32,251 nt of DNA from Leptospiraceae bacterium (GTDB lineage: Bacteria > Spirochaetota > Leptospiria > Leptospirales > Leptonemataceae), in assembly GCA_020440915.1 (NCBI GenBank), contig JAGRNE010000012.1, positions 1 to 32,251 of the forward strand. The letters run 5' to 3'. A model generated the notes under the pieces. The model saw nothing but the letters and a program-made list of their open reading frames with translations, was not told where the DNA came from and did not search any database. A program made the position numbers and the translations under genes. This document shows, one piece after another, positions 18,421-25,665 of this stretch (the stretch's first letter is position 1; the number at the start of each line of letters is the position of its first letter).

Positions 18421-20033
18421 TGGAGTCCTTCCTTTTGTACGGTCGGGCGATAACCTGTGGACGGCCCGGATTCCGTTCCATCGCCAGATTTCAGGGCTAC
18501 CCGAATGAGCGAAGGAAAATCCGAGCTCAGGGGATGTACGGAGCCCTGGCTACAGCTATGGAGCAGTTCCATGGCAGCCTTTGCCGCGATCGCAACATCG
18601 GATGTACGCGACAGGGCCGTCATTAGAATCCCAACCAGACAATCGCCGCTTCCTGCCACCGCCAGGCTGGCATTTGGCCAGGGAAATACCAGCGCCTTTT
18701 CGGAAAATGGATCCAGTAGCACGGAAGAGGGGCCTTTGTATAAGACGTAGGAACCAACCCGCGACTGCACGAATTCCAGAGCGCGCAAAAGCGCCGAAGC
18801 ATCCTTGATGACCCGGCCGCCCATCGCTTTCCATTCGCCAGGATGGGGCGTAAGCACGGTTCGACTTCCCTGAAGGGAGGGGAAGTCCAGGCTGGCTACT
18901 GTGGCGGCCGCATCCAGAACCAGAAAAGGAGTGGAAACATTGTCTGATCGGTGCGGTTTTTTCCCGTGAATCTCATCGGGAACCTGCGCAGGCATCGAAC
19001 CTGGTTGCTCAGCATGTGTTGAACGGTCGCCTATTTCGGGCAGTATCGAGGCCAGGTTCGAAAGATAAGATCTGGCCTCTTCGCCGGACGTGCCCGGTCC
19101 CACGGCGATAACAGAAGTGCGATCATCGATCTCGGGGCTTTTGGCCCACAGGATAGAAGGCTCTTCGAGCAGGCGCGGCGAAGAACTCAGAGCCCGGAGA
19201 ATTCCTCCTCCAGAAGCGAAAAAGGTGCGAGACGAAAGCAACAGAGCCCCTTCCATGCCCGGGCTTCCGCCCAGTATCCAGGCCGATCCATTCGCGTACT
19301 TATGGGAATCCTGAGATTTTTCAAACAGCCTCAGCCTCCGGCTATCTCGGCGGATCCAGGAGGAATGGTATCCTTTAGTGGGTACGAAACCAATGGGATG
19401 CGAAAAGACAGTGGACTTCAAAAGCTCAGGCGAAAGAGCGCAGGCAAGTCTATGGGGCCCATAGGTATGGATTTCATCTGGAACAAATAGGGAGGTTTCG
19501 TCGTACGGATGATCTTCCAGCAATCCTGCAGGCACATCCAGGCTAAGTACAAATGCGCCCCTCTGCTGAAGGCGCGCAATGCGCTGACACAGCATGCGAA
19601 GCATCCCTTCCAGGATTCGATCCTGACCGCTACCCAGCAAAGCCTCCACAACCATGTCTGGATTTTCCATGTGCGGCGAATCCAGGAACGATTCGGCATT
19701 CTGCCTTGGAATACTCCCTTTCTCAATCAGGGATTCATAGAACTGAGCCGCCTGGGAACGCGCCGGCGCTGTCTGGACCACCAGCAGCTTATGGGCTGGA
19801 AGGCCTGCCGAAAGTAGATGCCAGGCCAGGGCCAGACCGTCGCCGCCATTATTGCCCGGCCCGCAGAGTAATAGCGTGTTCGCTTCCTGGATTTGTAGGT
19901 ATTGCTGGAGTCTGTAAAGAGAGGAAAGGGCCGCCTGGCCCATGAGCTGGGTGGGGGTCCATCCAAGCTCCATGGTTTTCTTGTCCAGTTGTCTGGATTC
20001 TTCGTAGGTTAGTAGAGCGTCATCGCCATTCAT
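18417..20033 (-). CDS. nnr: bifunctional NAD(P)HX epimerase/dehydratase
   Basis: Repairs hydrated NAD(P)H: an N-terminal epimerase (YjeF_N, residues about 1-220) interconverts R and S NAD(P)HX, and a C-terminal ADP-dependent dehydratase (YjeF_C/ribokinase-like, about 235-535) restores NAD(P)H. The epimerase carries LCGPGNNGGDGLALAWHLL (residues 56-74) and SLDVPAGL; the dehydratase has GGSPGMEGALLLSSR, AVGPGTSGEE, VLTPHPGEWKAMGG, YVLYKGPSSVLL and SLAVAGSGDCLVG with the catalytic-type GD near residue 465. Length of 538 is close to E. coli Nnr (about 515). An odd point: the usual DALLGTG motif reads EALLGSG, with Glu at 130. The ATG at 20033 overlaps the upstream gene's end by 14 bases. Confidence 0.94.
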   Translation of the reverse strand: MNGDDALLTYEESRQLDKKTMELGWTPTQLMGQAALSSLYRLQQYLQIQEANTLLLCGPGNNGGDGLALAWHLLSAGLPAHKLLVVQTAPARSQAAQFYESLIEKGSIPRQNAESFLDSPHMENPDMVVEALLGSGQDRILEGMLRMLCQRIARLQQRGAFVLSLDVPAGLLEDHPYDETSLFVPDEIHTYGPHRLACALSPELLKSTVFSHPIGFVPTKGYHSSWIRRDSRRLRLFEKSQDSHKYANGSAWILGGSPGMEGALLLSSRTFFASGGGILRALSSSPRLLEEPSILWAKSPEIDDRTSVIAVGPGTSGEEARSYLSNLASILPEIGDRSTHAEQPGSMPAQVPDEIHGKKPHRSDNVSTPFLVLDAAATVASLDFPSLQGSRTVLTPHPGEWKAMGGRVIKDASALLRALEFVQSRVGSYVLYKGPSSVLLDPFSEKALVFPWPNASLAVAGSGDCLVGILMTALSRTSDVAIAAKAAMELLHSCSQGSVHPLSSDFPSLIRVALKSGDGTESGPSTGYRPTVQKEGLH

Positions 20034-21174
20034 TTAGCTGATAGTTGCCTTCCAGGATGCGAACGCTAAAGATCCGATTATCCAGGTTCCGGTAGGTTTC
20101 TCTCCAGGATTCTCGAATCCCTGGAAAACGGAGCAACTGGTTGTTCAGATACTCCCCGTTGGAACTAAAGATCTTAAAGAGTATTCCCCCGCTGTCATCC
20201 AGCGTTTCCAGTATAAAGCCCCCATCGGTAGCCGACCAGCTCAGAGCATCCTGCGGTTCATCGGTGGAATAGACCTCGGTGGCCGAACCGTTCAGAGGTT
20301 GTTCGTAGATCTTTCTTTCTTCCGGGGCGAAGGTGGATGGATTTCGCAAAACGGCGCTGATCAGAAATCGCTCTCCCCCTGGATAGGGAATCATCCTTTC
20401 AATTTCCAGCCGATGCTTCTTGAACTGTTCCGGTATCTGGATGCCTTCCGGAGCCACGGTTCGAACCAGGATACCTTCTCTGTACACCGTCACCACCGGG
20501 CCTTCGGAATTCATATGAAGTACATAAAGGGTATCGTCTTCGCCCATGGCCAGACGCCGAATGCGCTGGAAGCGAGCGGGGCCATCCTCGGCTTTAAGGG
20601 TAGTTACCGTTCGTTCATCCAGATCCACTCTCACCACCCGGGCTGGAGCGGATGTGGAGAATTCCGGCCGCAGGATTCCTGGCAGTCGGTTTTCGGGAGG
20701 CAGGTCCGGATTGTTGTCCGGCGGTGAATAGGTCTTCTTTTCTTCCTCGCTGATTTGATGCACTTCTATGTAGAGCGCATCATCGCTGGCGGCCAGACTG
20801 CCGGGTATTCCATCCGGAATGGCCGTCGTCTCAATCTCGGTGGTCAGCGGTTTACCGGATGCGTTTAGAATCCAGGTTGGCTTCGCCTGACTGCCCGGAA
20901 AGAAGCGAACCACTCGATAAGAAACGTCGCTGAGAAAAATGCCGTCGTCATTGAGCGCCGGCATATACGGAAAATTGCCGTAGATTCGCTCGTTTCGAAT
21001 TACAGGCAGGCCGTCCGGGAATTCGCCGTCCGTTATATCCATTTGTAGCGGAATGGAATACAGAGGCGTAGGCGCCAGCTCATCGATACGGAATCGAGCG
21101 CAGCTAAAGAGCGTGGGCATTAGGCCCAGAAAGAGGATTAAAATGGATCGATATATTGCGCGGGAATAGTGCAT
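20020..21174 (-). CDS. putative beta-propeller-like lipoprotein
   Basis: An exported lipoprotein of about 384 residues. The signal sequence reads YRSILILFLGLMPTLFSC with the lipid-modified Cys at residue 25 from the start chosen here. The mature part shows repeated beta-strand units of the NHL/propeller type: MPALNDDGIFLSDVSYRVVRF, GSLAASDDALYIEVHQI, IRRLAMGEDDTLYVLHM. No enzyme motif is visible. The frame is open to 21315, but the extra 47 residues run into the rimP leader and are not signal-like, so the ATG at 21174 is preferred; its AGGA is only two bases away. It is the first gene of the chain leading to the NAD(P)HX repair enzyme and is divergent from rimP. Confidence 0.72.
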   Translation of the reverse strand: MHYSRAIYRSILILFLGLMPTLFSCARFRIDELAPTPLYSIPLQMDITDGEFPDGLPVIRNERIYGNFPYMPALNDDGIFLSDVSYRVVRFFPGSQAKPTWILNASGKPLTTEIETTAIPDGIPGSLAASDDALYIEVHQISEEEKKTYSPPDNNPDLPPENRLPGILRPEFSTSAPARVVRVDLDERTVTTLKAEDGPARFQRIRRLAMGEDDTLYVLHMNSEGPVVTVYREGILVRTVAPEGIQIPEQFKKHRLEIERMIPYPGGERFLISAVLRNPSTFAPEERKIYEQPLNGSATEVYSTDEPQDALSWSATDGGFILETLDDSGGILFKIFSSNGEYLNNQLLRFPGIRESWRETYRNLDNRIFSVRILEGNYQLNEWR

Positions 21175-21238
21175 TCCTATTTGATTCGGGGTTTTCAAAT
21201 TCTGCCTCTCCACCGGGAACCATCTGGATTGAATTAGA

Positions 21239-21267
21239 TTGACAGTAAAGCGACAAAACGATTCTTT
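21239..21267 (+). promoter_or_regulatory. possible promoter of the rimP-nusA operon
   Basis: A perfect TTGACA (21239-21244) is followed after 17 bases by TTCTTT (21262-21267), only a partial match to TATAAT. It points at rimP in the divergent gap between the lipoprotein gene and rimP. Transcription would begin near 21274, right at the hairpin described at 21276. The weak -10 keeps confidence low. Confidence 0.4.
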
Positions 21268-21275
21268 GTAGGGGA

Positions 21276-21300
21276 AGTGGGTTTCACCCGCTTTTTTTTT
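21276..21300 (+). terminator. terminator-like hairpin with T9 just before rimP
   Basis: AGTGGGT and ACCCGCT form a 7-bp stem (one G-T pair) around a TTC loop, followed at once by nine T residues (21292-21300). The ATG of rimP begins 16 bases later. In the plus direction this has the form of an intrinsic terminator; on the minus strand there is no T-run. No plus-strand gene ends within 4.9 kb upstream, so it most likely belongs to the rimP-nusA-infB leader as an attenuator, or is a 5' stabilising hairpin. Confidence 0.65.
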
Positions 21301-21316
21301 GCCGGATGGCCGCAAA

Positions 21317-21850
21317 ATGGAAGTTCTGGATGAAATTGCGGCGGAGGCGCTTCTGCCGGGGACGCAGATCTATTCTCTGCGGCTCCTTAATGCAGGGGGT
21401 GGCTACCATATTGAAGTCCAGCTGGATGATCTGAACCACCCCACCGGTTCCGTGAATCTGGAACAGTGCGAAGCGTTTAGCCGAGCGCTTGTGGAAAGGC
21501 TGGATGCTGCCCTGGATTCCGGGCAAACGGAACTGCCTGCAGACTTGAATGCCGAAAACTATTCCCTGGAGGTTTCTTCGGCCGGGGCGGAGCGTCAGCT
21601 ACGGCTACCGGGCGATCTGGAGCGGTTCAAGGTTCAGCCTTTGAAGCTTCAGTTTGAGCTGGACGGAACGGTTCATACCGAGATCGTTCAGTACCAGGGG
21701 AAGGAAGACCGGGAGGGCCCGGAGATATTATTTTTTCGATCCTATAAAACAGGAGGGTCCAGAAAGAAAGGAAAGAGCAAGAAGGAAGAAAAGACCTTCC
21801 AGCTTTCTATAGAACAGATTCGCAAAGCGTTTTTGTATCTGGACGTATGA
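21317..21850 (+). CDS. rimP: ribosome maturation factor RimP
   Basis: Cytosolic factor needed for maturation of the 30S ribosomal subunit. It has 177 residues from the ATG at 21317. The N-terminal alpha/beta domain includes YSLRLLNAGGGYHIEVQLDD and the SVNLEQCEAFSRALVERLD segment; ENYSLEVSSAGAERQLRLPGDLERF (about residues 85-108) is the family hallmark (usually LEVSSPGLdRpL with Pro; here Ala), followed by the C-terminal SH3-like domain with a basic insert GSRKKGKSKKEEK. An in-frame TTG lies 18 bases upstream, but it abuts the T-run and leaves no ribosome binding site; GGATGG precedes the ATG. The stop overlaps the nusA ATG (ATGA), the usual rimP-nusA coupling. Confidence 0.9.
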   Translation: MEVLDEIAAEALLPGTQIYSLRLLNAGGGYHIEVQLDDLNHPTGSVNLEQCEAFSRALVERLDAALDSGQTELPADLNAENYSLEVSSAGAERQLRLPGDLERFKVQPLKLQFELDGTVHTEIVQYQGKEDREGPEILFFRSYKTGGSRKKGKSKKEEKTFQLSIEQIRKAFLYLDV

Positions 21851-23220
21851 AGATGGCAAAAGCAAAGAAAAAGCAACAATCCGGCCCCGATATCCGGGCC
21901 TTTTTCGATTCCATGGACGCTCTGGCCGCAGAAAAGGGCCTGGGCAAAGATGAAATCATGGAGATCTTTCGCGGCAGTCTTATCACTTCCTATCAGAGAA
22001 AGCATGGGCCCGACGCACGCATCGAAGTGCAGCTGGATGCGGAGACTCCTTCCATAGGAGTTCAGGTGCACAAGCAGATCGTGGATTCTGTGGAAGACCC
22101 TTCCCTGGAGATCACCGTTGAAGAGGCAAAGAAGTATCGAGAGGATGCAAAAGCCGGCGAAGAATTGATCATTGAAGAAGAGCCTTTCGCTTTCTCGCGG
22201 ATTGGAGCTACCAATGTCCGCCACATCTTTTTCCAGCGTCTCAAGGAACAGGAAAGAGAAATTGTCTACAATGAATTCAAACACAAGGAAGGCGAGCTAA
22301 TCAACGGTCAGTTTCTTCGCTGGAGAGACCGGGAAGTTGTATATGTGGATCTGGGCCGTGCTGAAGGAGTGCTTCCTCGAAGAGAGCAAATTCCCAGGGA
22401 AAGGTTTCATCCCGGCGATCGCATCAAGGCTGTTATAAAGTCCGTGGAGCTCCGACGAGAAAAGTCCAGGGATCCAGGTCCGTACATCCTTCTTTCCAGG
22501 GCGGCTCCGGACTTTGTTCGCCGACTGTTCGAGCAGGAAATTCCAGAGATCTACGATGGCGTTGTGGAGATCATGGATATTGTACGGGATGCTGGCTTCC
22601 GCAGCAAATTGCTGGTGCGTTCCAATCGTTCTGATGTAGATCCTGTAGGCGCCTGCGTGGGCATTAAAGGGGTTCGGATTCAGTCCATTGTGCGAGAACT
22701 GGGAAATGAAAGAATCGATATTGTGAATTACTCCCCGGAAGCCGCAGAGCTTATAGCAAATGCTATTTCTCCGGCCCGGGTAGCGGAAGTTCGCGCCGAT
22801 TCCGGTACCAAAGAGGCGCTTGTGCTTGTACCGGACGACCAGCTTCGTCTGGCCCAGGGGCCGGACAATAAGAATGTAAAGCTGGCAGCGAGATTAACCG
22901 GCTTCCGGCTCATCGTAAAGTCTTTGACGCAATTCGGGGAAGAAATGTCATCTCCGGAAGCGAGGGCTCAGCTGGAGCAACTGTTCAGTCCCAAAGAGGA
23001 AGAAGGCAGCGAAGCCGATTCGGATTACACTCCGCTCAACGAACTTCCTGGCCTTTCCAGCCGGATTATCGATTTGCTGGAGCAAAGCGGCGTGAAGAGT
23101 GTGGAAGATCTGGTTGAGTTGGAGCCGGAAGAGCTGGAAGCTCTACCGGGAATTGGAAAGACAACAGCTGCTCAGATTCTGAAGATACTGGAGGATGTGG
23201 TCTCCTTCGAAGAGGTTTGA
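21847..23220 (+). CDS. nusA: transcription termination/antitermination factor NusA
   Basis: RNA polymerase-associated factor controlling pausing, termination and antitermination; 457 residues. Domains in order: NusA N-terminal domain (about 12-140), S1 (about 148-215, INGQFLRWRDREVVYVDLG), KH1 and KH2 (about 240-385, with DPVGACVGIKGVRIQSIVRELGNERIDIV, the most conserved block of NusA), a short acidic linker, and a C-terminal helix-hairpin-helix domain (about 405-457, LPGLSSRIIDLLEQSGVKSVEDL then LEALPGIGKTTAAQIL). The ATG overlaps the rimP stop by four bases; a second ATG is two codons further in. The genes ylxR and ylxQ, often found between nusA and infB elsewhere, are absent. Confidence 0.97.
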   Translation: MKMAKAKKKQQSGPDIRAFFDSMDALAAEKGLGKDEIMEIFRGSLITSYQRKHGPDARIEVQLDAETPSIGVQVHKQIVDSVEDPSLEITVEEAKKYREDAKAGEELIIEEEPFAFSRIGATNVRHIFFQRLKEQEREIVYNEFKHKEGELINGQFLRWRDREVVYVDLGRAEGVLPRREQIPRERFHPGDRIKAVIKSVELRREKSRDPGPYILLSRAAPDFVRRLFEQEIPEIYDGVVEIMDIVRDAGFRSKLLVRSNRSDVDPVGACVGIKGVRIQSIVRELGNERIDIVNYSPEAAELIANAISPARVAEVRADSGTKEALVLVPDDQLRLAQGPDNKNVKLAARLTGFRLIVKSLTQFGEEMSSPEARAQLEQLFSPKEEEGSEADSDYTPLNELPGLSSRIIDLLEQSGVKSVEDLVELEPEELEALPGIGKTTAAQILKILEDVVSFEEV

Positions 23221-23253: not shown

Positions 23254-25665
23254 ATGGCGGAACAGAACGAAAATCAGGGCAGCATCAAGAAGCAGCTAAC
23301 CGGGTCCGGCGGGGCCAAGGGGAAGAAGAAGCTGGTCATCAAGAAAAAGGTGGACCAGAAGAAGGATATCTCCGAGCACTTCGACTCGCCCAAGAAGTCA
23401 GCCAGGCCGGCAGCGTCCAAGACTGCGCCGGCTCCGGAAAAACCTGCAGCCGGCCAGAGTGGGCCACCTCCTCAAAGACAGGAGTCCCAGCGACCGCCTC
23501 AGTCCCAGCCTCGACCCCAGGGTAGGCAGGGCGAACAACGCCGAGGCCCCGGTGGTCCTCCGGGCGGAGGTCAGGGCGGACCCAGGCCGCAGCGACCGGG
23601 TGGAGATCGTCGACCGCCGCAGGGCGGTCAGAAAGGGCAGGGCACCGGCGTTAGCCGGGTGAGCTTCGCAGGAGCGGGCACCCCCTTTGATGCATTACTG
23701 GAAAGTACCAGAAAAGCTGCCAGCGCCAACCAGGCGCAGGGAAGAGGCGGCAAAGGGCCGGGAGCGCGCGGTCCAGGGAAGCCCGGAGAACCGGATCGTC
23801 CGGATGCTGGTGGAGGACGTCGTGGCGGCGGAGGACGCCGGGGCGGACACGATAACGAAAACATCAATAAGTTTCAGCGCGCCGTAAAGCGCAAGCCTCA
23901 GCCTAGCGGGACTACAGTACCTACCTCCATCGATATTATGGAAAGCGTTCAGGTGGGCGAACTGGCCAAGAAGCTGAACCTCAAACCAGGGGATGTAATC
24001 GGTCGCTTGATGAAGATGGGCGAAATGGTTACCATCAACAAAATCATCGATTCAGAAACGGCCGCTCTGGTAGCCCAGGAATTCGGATGTAAAGTGAACG
24101 TAGTTTCTCTCTACGATGAAACTGTTATCCAGGAAGAAGAGGACAAAGAAGAGGATCGCTCCATTCGTCCGCCGGTAGTTACTATCATGGGTCACGTCGA
24201 CCACGGTAAGACCAAATTGCTGGATACCATCCGAAAGTCCAACGTCATTGATACAGAAGCAGGGGCAATTACACAGCACATTGGCGCTTATCAGGTAGAG
24301 ACTCCTAACGGAAAGATTACCTTCCTGGATACTCCAGGTCACGAAGCCTTTACGGCCATGCGATCCAGAGGGGCTGCGGTAACTGACATTGTTATTCTGG
24401 TTGTGGCTGCCGACGACGGGGTAAAAGAGCAGACCAAAGAAGCCATTACCCATGCCAAAGAAGCGGAAGTTCCGATCATTGTAGCCGTAAACAAAATCGA
24501 TCTTCCGGGCGCAAACCTGGAAAAGGTACTGCAGGAACTGGCCACGGCCGGGCTGCAGTCAGAATCCTGGGGTGGCGACATCGTAGTTTGCGAAATCTCG
24601 GCCAAGAACAACATCGGTATTGAACATCTCCTGGAGATGGTCCTCCTACAGGCCGAAATCCTGAACCTCAATGCGAATCCAAAAGTCCGGCCGGTGGGTC
24701 ACGTGATCGAAGCCAGGGTGGATGCTGGAAAAGGTCCTGTGGCCACGCTGCTCATCGAAAAGGGAACCCTTCGCGAAGGCGACCCCTTTGTTGTGGGGGT
24801 CTACTCCGGAAAGATTCGAGCCATGTTCGACGATCTGGGACGACGAAGAACCGAAGCTCCTCCGGCCACTCCGGTGGAAATCATCGGTCTGGACGGCGTT
24901 CCCCAGGCGGGGGATCCGTTCCAGGTCGTGGAGTCCGAAAAATATGCCCGGGAAATGGCCTCCACAAGGCAGCATTACGAACAGATCAGCCGTGCAGCCG
25001 AACGTGCACAGCCCAGTATGGATGCTCTGGCCGAATGGATGCAGGAGCACAAAGAGCTCAAGATCATTGTCAAGGCAGACGTTCAGGGTTCTGTCGAAGC
25101 GATTCGCGACGGCCTGATGAAGCTGGCCCACGACGATGTAAAAATCCGCGTCATTATGGGCTCCACCGGCGCTATCAGCGAGTCCGATGTAAGCCTTGCC
25201 TCGGCTTCCAATGCCATGGTGCTGGGCTTTCATGTCCGGGCCACACCGCAGGCCACGGAACTGGCCGAAAGAGATGGCGTGGATATTCGCTACTACAGCA
25301 TTATCTACAACCTCATCGAGGACATGGCCAAAGCCATGGAGGGTCTGCTGGAGCCGGACTACGTCGAAGAAGTGAAGGGCCGGGCAGAAGTTCGCAAGGT
25401 GTTCCGCATTTCCAGAGTTGGAAACGTTGCCGGTTGTATGGTGATTTCTGGAAAGATTCATCGAAACAACAAGATTCGCATTCTGCGAGACAACGTTGTT
25501 CTTTACGAAGACGGCGAGCTGGACAGCCTCAAGCGTCATAAAGATGACTCCGCAGAGGTGGCAGAGGGCTTCGAATGCGGTATCTCTCTGAAAGGCTACA
25601 ATGACCTCAAAGAAGGGGACATCATTGAAGGTTATGTGATCAATGAGGTGGCCAGAACTCTTTAA
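23254..25665 (+). CDS. infB: translation initiation factor IF-2
   Basis: GTPase that brings initiator fMet-tRNA to the ribosome; 803 residues. The first 225 residues are low-complexity and rich in G, P, Q, R and K with repeated GGGRRGG-like runs. An IF2 N-domain follows at about 230-285 ([23 protein letters not shown]), then the G domain with G1 GHVDHGKT near 312, G3 DTPGHEAF near 359 and G4 NKID near 413. Domains II-IV complete the protein ([17 protein letters not shown], then VLGFHVR and [15 protein letters not shown]). The ATG has AGGA seven bases upstream and lies 33 bases after nusA. Its extended N-terminus is probably disordered and varies greatly within the family. Confidence 0.97.

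Follow-up and report, generated by a model that had tools for sequence, protein, structure and literature searches.

The window analysed here, that is, the whole stretch of 32,251 nucleotides from a Leptospiraceae bacterium, carries on its plus strand the genes rimP (21317..21850; Pfam RimP_N), nusA (21847..23220; Pfam NusA_N and KH_5) and infB (23254..25665; named by eye from its translation). The ATG of rimP (21317-21319) is kept in congeners, and that of nusA overlaps the rimP stop. As had been claimed, no plus-strand gene lies directly ahead of this operon; its upstream neighbour is a divergent minus-strand ORF (20020..21174), which appears lipoprotein-like by eye and has no Pfam match. 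Judged by NusA, the closest named relatives (92–93% identical) are the MAGs Leptospiraceae bacterium SP332 and Spirochaetaceae bacterium NP47 and NP120.

The leader of the operon contains a -35-like TTGACA (21239..21244, plus strand) and, 30 nt 3' of it, a terminator hairpin (21275..21293, plus strand) recognized from the sequence, its folding (-11.3 kcal/mol) and covariation across the class. Read from the plus strand, the hairpin consists of the 5' arm AAGTGGGT (21275-21282), the loop TTC (21283-21285) and the 3' arm ACCCGCTT (21286-21293), and it is joined to a T9 tract (21292..21300) that ends 16 nt short of the rimP ATG, two T of the tract pairing with AA in the stem. The hairpin, the T9, the TTGACA and the distances between them are all present as described in the original prediction, which had counted seven pairs in the stem; a recount gives eight, one of them a T.G wobble.

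By folding energy alone, the hairpin is not beyond chance: the 76-nt leader stretch folds at -22.0 kcal/mol (z -0.94), and 39 of 200 shuffled sequences fold as well. A simple terminator scan of the window did not include the hairpin among its calls, and an Rfam search of the window returned no match at gathering cut-offs and, with E up to 5, four matches to unrelated families far under their cut-offs. The hairpin rises above chance because of its conservation and its spacing from TTGAC.

NusA was found in 45 of the 48 genomes of the class, and rimP leaders were assessable in 41 of them, the remaining four being cut by a contig end (G012), lacking an adjacent rimP frame (G013 and G014) or absent from the leader set (G026). 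When the proposed comparison with relatives was carried out, a hairpin with a T-run was found ahead of rimP in 28 of the 41 leaders, from 16 genera and four families; the species are related, and the 28 leaders are not 28 independent events. The lack of conservation that was to speak against the original prediction is not observed across these 16 genera. The detector recognized 24 of these and four were recognized by eye (L010, L011, L013, and L014). The 13 leaders without the element, four from the AT-rich genus g2, seven from family f2 and two from family f4, indicate that the operon can do without it. The detector demands three G-C pairs and T5 and would overlook a hairpin made solely of A-T pairs in g2 or f2. 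All 28 positive leaders have a T-run of at least four after the 3' arm, and in 26 it is an uninterrupted T5 or longer, the interrupted cases being L013 and L014, the latter with a degenerate stem as well. In two leaders of genus g3 (L010 and L011), a second hairpin is inserted in the terminator loop; L010 still folds closed with this insert, and L011 has the same letters there. On two contigs of one genome (G003), both ending at this point (L175 is the end of G003:C28), the rimP leader is present, apparently reflecting an assembly break.

The spacing is equally regular: with stem bounds set by hand, TTGAC starts 31–42 nt 5' of the stem in all 28 leaders with a hairpin. Among 80 background terminator-like hairpins (detector score of at least 13, drawn from 0.4 Mb of G032 and as much of G004, about 0.8 Mb in all), none has TTGAC 28–43 nt before it, 0.8 being expected from TTGAC density. 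The Rfam model of the rimP leader (RF01770) exceeds its curated cut-off in none of the 48 class genomes and in one of 14 control genomes, and it gives no match in the window.

Base-pair covariation was examined in a MAFFT alignment of 25 leaders (24 distinct rows) with the structure assigned by hand; L010, L011, and L014 were left out on account of the loop insert or degenerate stem, and L008 lies a few columns off. In the distinct rows, 95.8% of stem cells are paired. Both sides have changed in five of the eight stem pairs, a number reached by 1 of 500 shuffles, and the covariation score was reached by none of 500; further pair types were unremarkable, their observed value being reached by 49 of 500. 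One stem position is U.G in 18 of the 24 distinct rows, and a stem that covaries while retaining a U.G wobble argues for an RNA element and against a DNA operator. A palindromic operator, bound by a repressor that overlaps +1, would account for an inverted repeat lying just 3' of a promoter, but it would not be expected to keep a non-complementary T.G position in those 18 rows, to vary in loop length (two species have a larger loop that holds a nested hairpin) or to carry a T-run on one side only; we therefore consider such an operator highly improbable.

The position of the transcription start was approached by fitting a -10 motif to 36 leaders (25 from rimP and 11 from greA, the near copies L002, L003, and L011 having been dropped). 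The fit reached 4.17 bits, compared with a mean of 3.19 and a maximum of 3.38 in 20 shuffled controls, which were given fewer restarts than the real fit. The fitted 6-mer lies mostly at a spacer of 19–20 and, if taken as the -10 itself, would put +1 at 33–39 nt from TTGAC, which in the window is about 21278, within the 5' arm, as it also is in some other leaders. This register matters because transcription beginning within the 5' arm would weaken or spoil the hairpin. We infer instead that the conserved T is the last base of the -10 (xAxxxT, spacer 16–17), with +1 about 34 nt from the first base of TTGAC and near the base of the stem; the adopted register is the fitted 6-mer moved 3 nt upstream, and the start is uncertain by several nt. 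In the window, this gives a weak -10-like ATTCTT/TTCTTT at 21261..21267 and a predicted start at 21273..21275 (both plus strand). Even with the adopted register, the stems of L005 and L111 as drawn begin 1–3 nt ahead of the predicted start. For L. interrogans, a published study identified no promoter motif except that of sigma54 (PMC5243855).

The original prediction had cautioned that, if the TTGACA promoter is real, the transcript would start at the hairpin itself; such a start is favoured by the conserved TTGAC-to-stem spacing and by the weak motif at the -10 position. If the predicted start is right, at most a few nt lie 5' of the stem, too few to hold either a leader peptide or an antiterminator, and the terminated RNA would be about 26–28 nt long. 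Directly 5' of the -35 lies a conserved block, CACCGGGAACCATCTGGATTGAATTAGA (21211..21238, plus strand), which is kept in four congeners (L001-L004), the sequence beyond it diverging. In three relatives, the left end of this block completes an inverted repeat, TGGTTC-ACCGG-GAACCA, which the window does not have and which could be an operator for the divergent gene or for the promoter.

Attenuators of this kind are known from other bacteria. The rimP-leader attenuator published by Naville and Gautheret (2010; PMC2965389) is likewise a short terminator with a T-stretch directly 5' of rimP-nusA-infB, with a G-rich 5' arm and a C-rich 3' arm, and its published range of terminator-to-gene distances (4–130 nt) includes the 16 nt of the window. 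It was reported without a visible antiterminator, a feature that in our case would follow from the predicted +1. The published signature, GGGc(...)gCCC, differs from the GGGT...ACCC of the window, in which the three G-C pairs are present and the next pair is U-A instead of C-G; across the class, the stem is mostly GTGGC...GCCGC with a U.G wobble (consensus GUGGC/GCCGC). The main text of that paper contains no word beginning with Spirochaet or Leptospira. Outside the class, we scanned 28 loci, hand-chosen from 80 and including one spirochaete record (L050), and found a hairpin with a T-run before rimP in 24; a TATATTT lies 16–21 nt ahead of the stem in six of nine non-Lactobacillales loci inspected more closely, a hint that terminators sitting near the start may be common.

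Termination has been measured at one such leader. In S. agalactiae, transcription of the rimP-nusA-infB operon (gbs0413-gbs0418) terminates 31 nt after its mapped start, and feedback by NusA has been suggested (PMC4448216); that organism belongs to a different phylum, whereas both start and termination in the window are predicted. In B. subtilis, NusA autoregulates by attenuation, stimulating intrinsic termination in the leader of its own rimP(ylxS)-nusA operon (reviewed in PMC12288461), as we suppose for the window, although the B. subtilis leader is about 180 nt long and only a few nt are predicted before the stem here. Older evidence for an effect of NusA in E. coli is cited in the rimP-leader literature (PMC2965389). 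The E. coli greA leader (GraL) likewise belongs to an elongation-factor gene and has its intrinsic terminator near the start, yielding RNAs of 37–59 nt, read-through of about one third and autoregulation (PMC6829880); it differs from the window in preceding another gene and in needing leader sequence upstream of the terminator (PMC6829880). The stop at 31 nt in S. agalactiae (PMC4448216) and the 37–59-nt RNAs of E. coli greA (PMC6829880) answer the earlier objection that an extremely short RNA is a poor terminator substrate.

These same comparisons bear on whether the hairpin might instead protect the transcript, as the original prediction had also considered. A 5'-terminal hairpin could guard against 5'-end-dependent decay of the mRNA, with the T-run either incidental or a U-rich stretch for ribosome binding; the predicted +1 near the stem, the want of a clear Shine-Dalgarno in the leader and the short distance from the end of the T-run to the ATG (16 nt in the window and, by eye, 3 nt in L124) would all fit such a role. 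A pure stability hairpin nevertheless leaves the T-run of all 28 leaders unexplained, and the conservation of the stem sequence and the termination measured at the homologous S. agalactiae leader (PMC4448216) also speak against it, so that we think it improbable.

We conclude, with a probability of about 0.7, that the element is a promoter-proximal attenuator of the rimP-leader type, at which NusA most likely raises termination. This develops the attenuator proposed in the original prediction, which is supported by the conserved stem and T-run, by covariation and by agreement with the published rimP leader. RNA polymerase would start at about 21273-21275, so that the nascent RNA is almost solely the terminator; once U9 has been made, the hairpin would fold and part of the polymerases would stop, releasing an RNA of about 26–28 nt, while the remaining polymerases would read through into rimP-nusA-infB. 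By analogy with other phyla, NusA is a plausible effector at this leader and most likely raises termination, whereby abundant NusA would cut its own synthesis. If this geometry is right, there is no upstream RNA, the terminator itself is the sensor and control has to be exerted on the early elongation complex. In this marine spirochaete, the predicted start of the nusA operon would thus carry a built-in stop, a known type of feedback brake. The findings suggest that, in this class, an attenuator that ranks among the most widespread in bacteria takes the form of a bare terminator placed at the start site or beside it.

The same arrangement precedes other genes in sister families. A class-wide search with a model of the rimP leader (R1) also matched a second gene in G030, G032, G033, and G042, which encodes a long GreA with TPR, GreA_GreB_N and GreA_GreB domains. 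Among 41 greA leaders scanned (L197, of 73 nt, dropped), the promoter-terminator arrangement was found in 11, namely all 11 from families f3 and f4, and in neither of two loci from f5 (both G038) nor any of 28 from f1 and f2 (one of the 28, L214, being covered hardly beyond the gene start), the greA leader of the window's own genome (L178) included among the negatives. TTGAC lies 33–43 nt from the stem in these greA leaders. Their stem has a covariation score reached by none of 500 shuffles and both-side changes in six of 10 pairs (reached by 4 of 500), but in further pair types it does not exceed the shuffles, 491 of 500 of which attain the observed value. An AGTGGC is common to the rimP and greA stems in some species, and f4 genomes have the greA element and no rimP element.

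In genus g21, the element heads a tRNA-Ser-Ser-Thr-Trp cluster followed by NusG (Pfam) in all five assessable genomes, always with 36 nt from TTGAC to the stem; a sixth locus (L259) is cut short. The survey comprised 30 nusG loci, 12 more genomes having a nusG match outside it, and the other 24 loci show no element, at least one of them (L271) being without upstream sequence. A nusG was not found in the window's own assembly, and two congener nusG loci (L275 and L277) are without the element. Most of the f3 loci (L256-L265) have tRNA-Ser, Ser, Thr, and Trp ahead of nusG. Among L256-L265, it is in the g21 loci alone that a hairpin lying 36 nt downstream of TTGAC stands before the first tRNA, and the tRNAs rather than nusG may be the controlled target there.

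These arrangements, which are apparently new in the sister families, bear on which factor is sensed at the rimP leader. A true promoter-proximal terminator could have its read-through set by the state of the polymerase at promoter escape, by ppGpp or NTP levels, by RimP or by another elongation factor, and not by NusA. Since the geometry recurs before greA and tRNA-nusG, something other than NusA may be what is sensed, and the terminator in the leader of E. coli greA showed no response when Nus factors were overproduced (PMC6829880); NusA feedback has, however, been reported in B. subtilis (PMC12288461) and suggested in S. agalactiae (PMC4448216), and we regard control by something other than NusA as the less likely, if serious, alternative to NusA-raised termination.

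In Turneriella-like g21 (the name is inferred), each of the three leaders, for rimP-nusA, greA and tRNA-nusG, has TTGAC, a distance of 33–39 nt, a hairpin and a T-run, and their stems differ. We tentatively propose, while thinking it rather doubtful, that promoter-fused terminators are a shared elongation-factor device in this genus, each factor metering itself through termination of early polymerases, in a regulon whose only readout is the strength of the terminators. Should the greA and nusG cases be true, they would form a natural set for learning how an elongation factor can gauge its own abundance solely through termination. In the window's own family, only the nusA member is present as far as seen. 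No description of a nusA/greA/nusG set was seen among the papers listed by the literature search, most subscription papers lying outside that search.

The specificity of the arrangement was examined across whole genomes. In G032, the pattern TTGAC-N42-64-T6 is rarer than its control (107 versus 134 matches). Tests covered the 87 distinct strings among 100 matches listed, of which nine have a hairpin (score of at least 10) 28–43 nt after TTGAC, scoring 22.4 for greA, 17.1 for rimP, 13.8 for tRNA-nusG and 11.1–15.8 for six others. Four of these nine listed matches are intergenic (rimP, greA, tRNA-nusG and one before an RRM-protein ORF), and five of the six others lie inside open frames of 214–504 codons. 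The tRNA-nusG hairpin does not score above three of the others (14.1, 14.2, and 15.8), so that this case rests on position and on recurrence in five genomes. In the 280 kb of the G032 tail where unlisted matches could fall, none of 32 was positive; about 54 kb and a second contig lay outside the scan.

In the window's own genome (G000), where all 18 distinct strings were tested, rimP was the one leader found, and rimP alone stood out by eye among the matches of G004 and G009. A strong hairpin on G000:C409 with TTGAC 27 nt before it was set aside as an ordinary terminator with a chance TTGAC, since it follows the end of one ORF and lies ahead of a convergent ORF. Weaker R1 matches were read at 20 places. 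Besides the tRNA-nusG leader, a rimP-leader copy at a contig end and four leaders of greA, these were for the most part ordinary terminators at 3' ends or a TTGAC accompanied by a poor hairpin. A weaker hairpin (score 12.2) with TTGAC 31 nt before it was seen at G000:C50:3377-3441. In G032, the intergenic match at positions 989-1048 of L316 (G032:C1:3287788) has TTGACA 34 nt before a weaker hairpin, 5' of the ORF for the RRM RNA-binding protein, and is a possible fourth promoter-fused hairpin.
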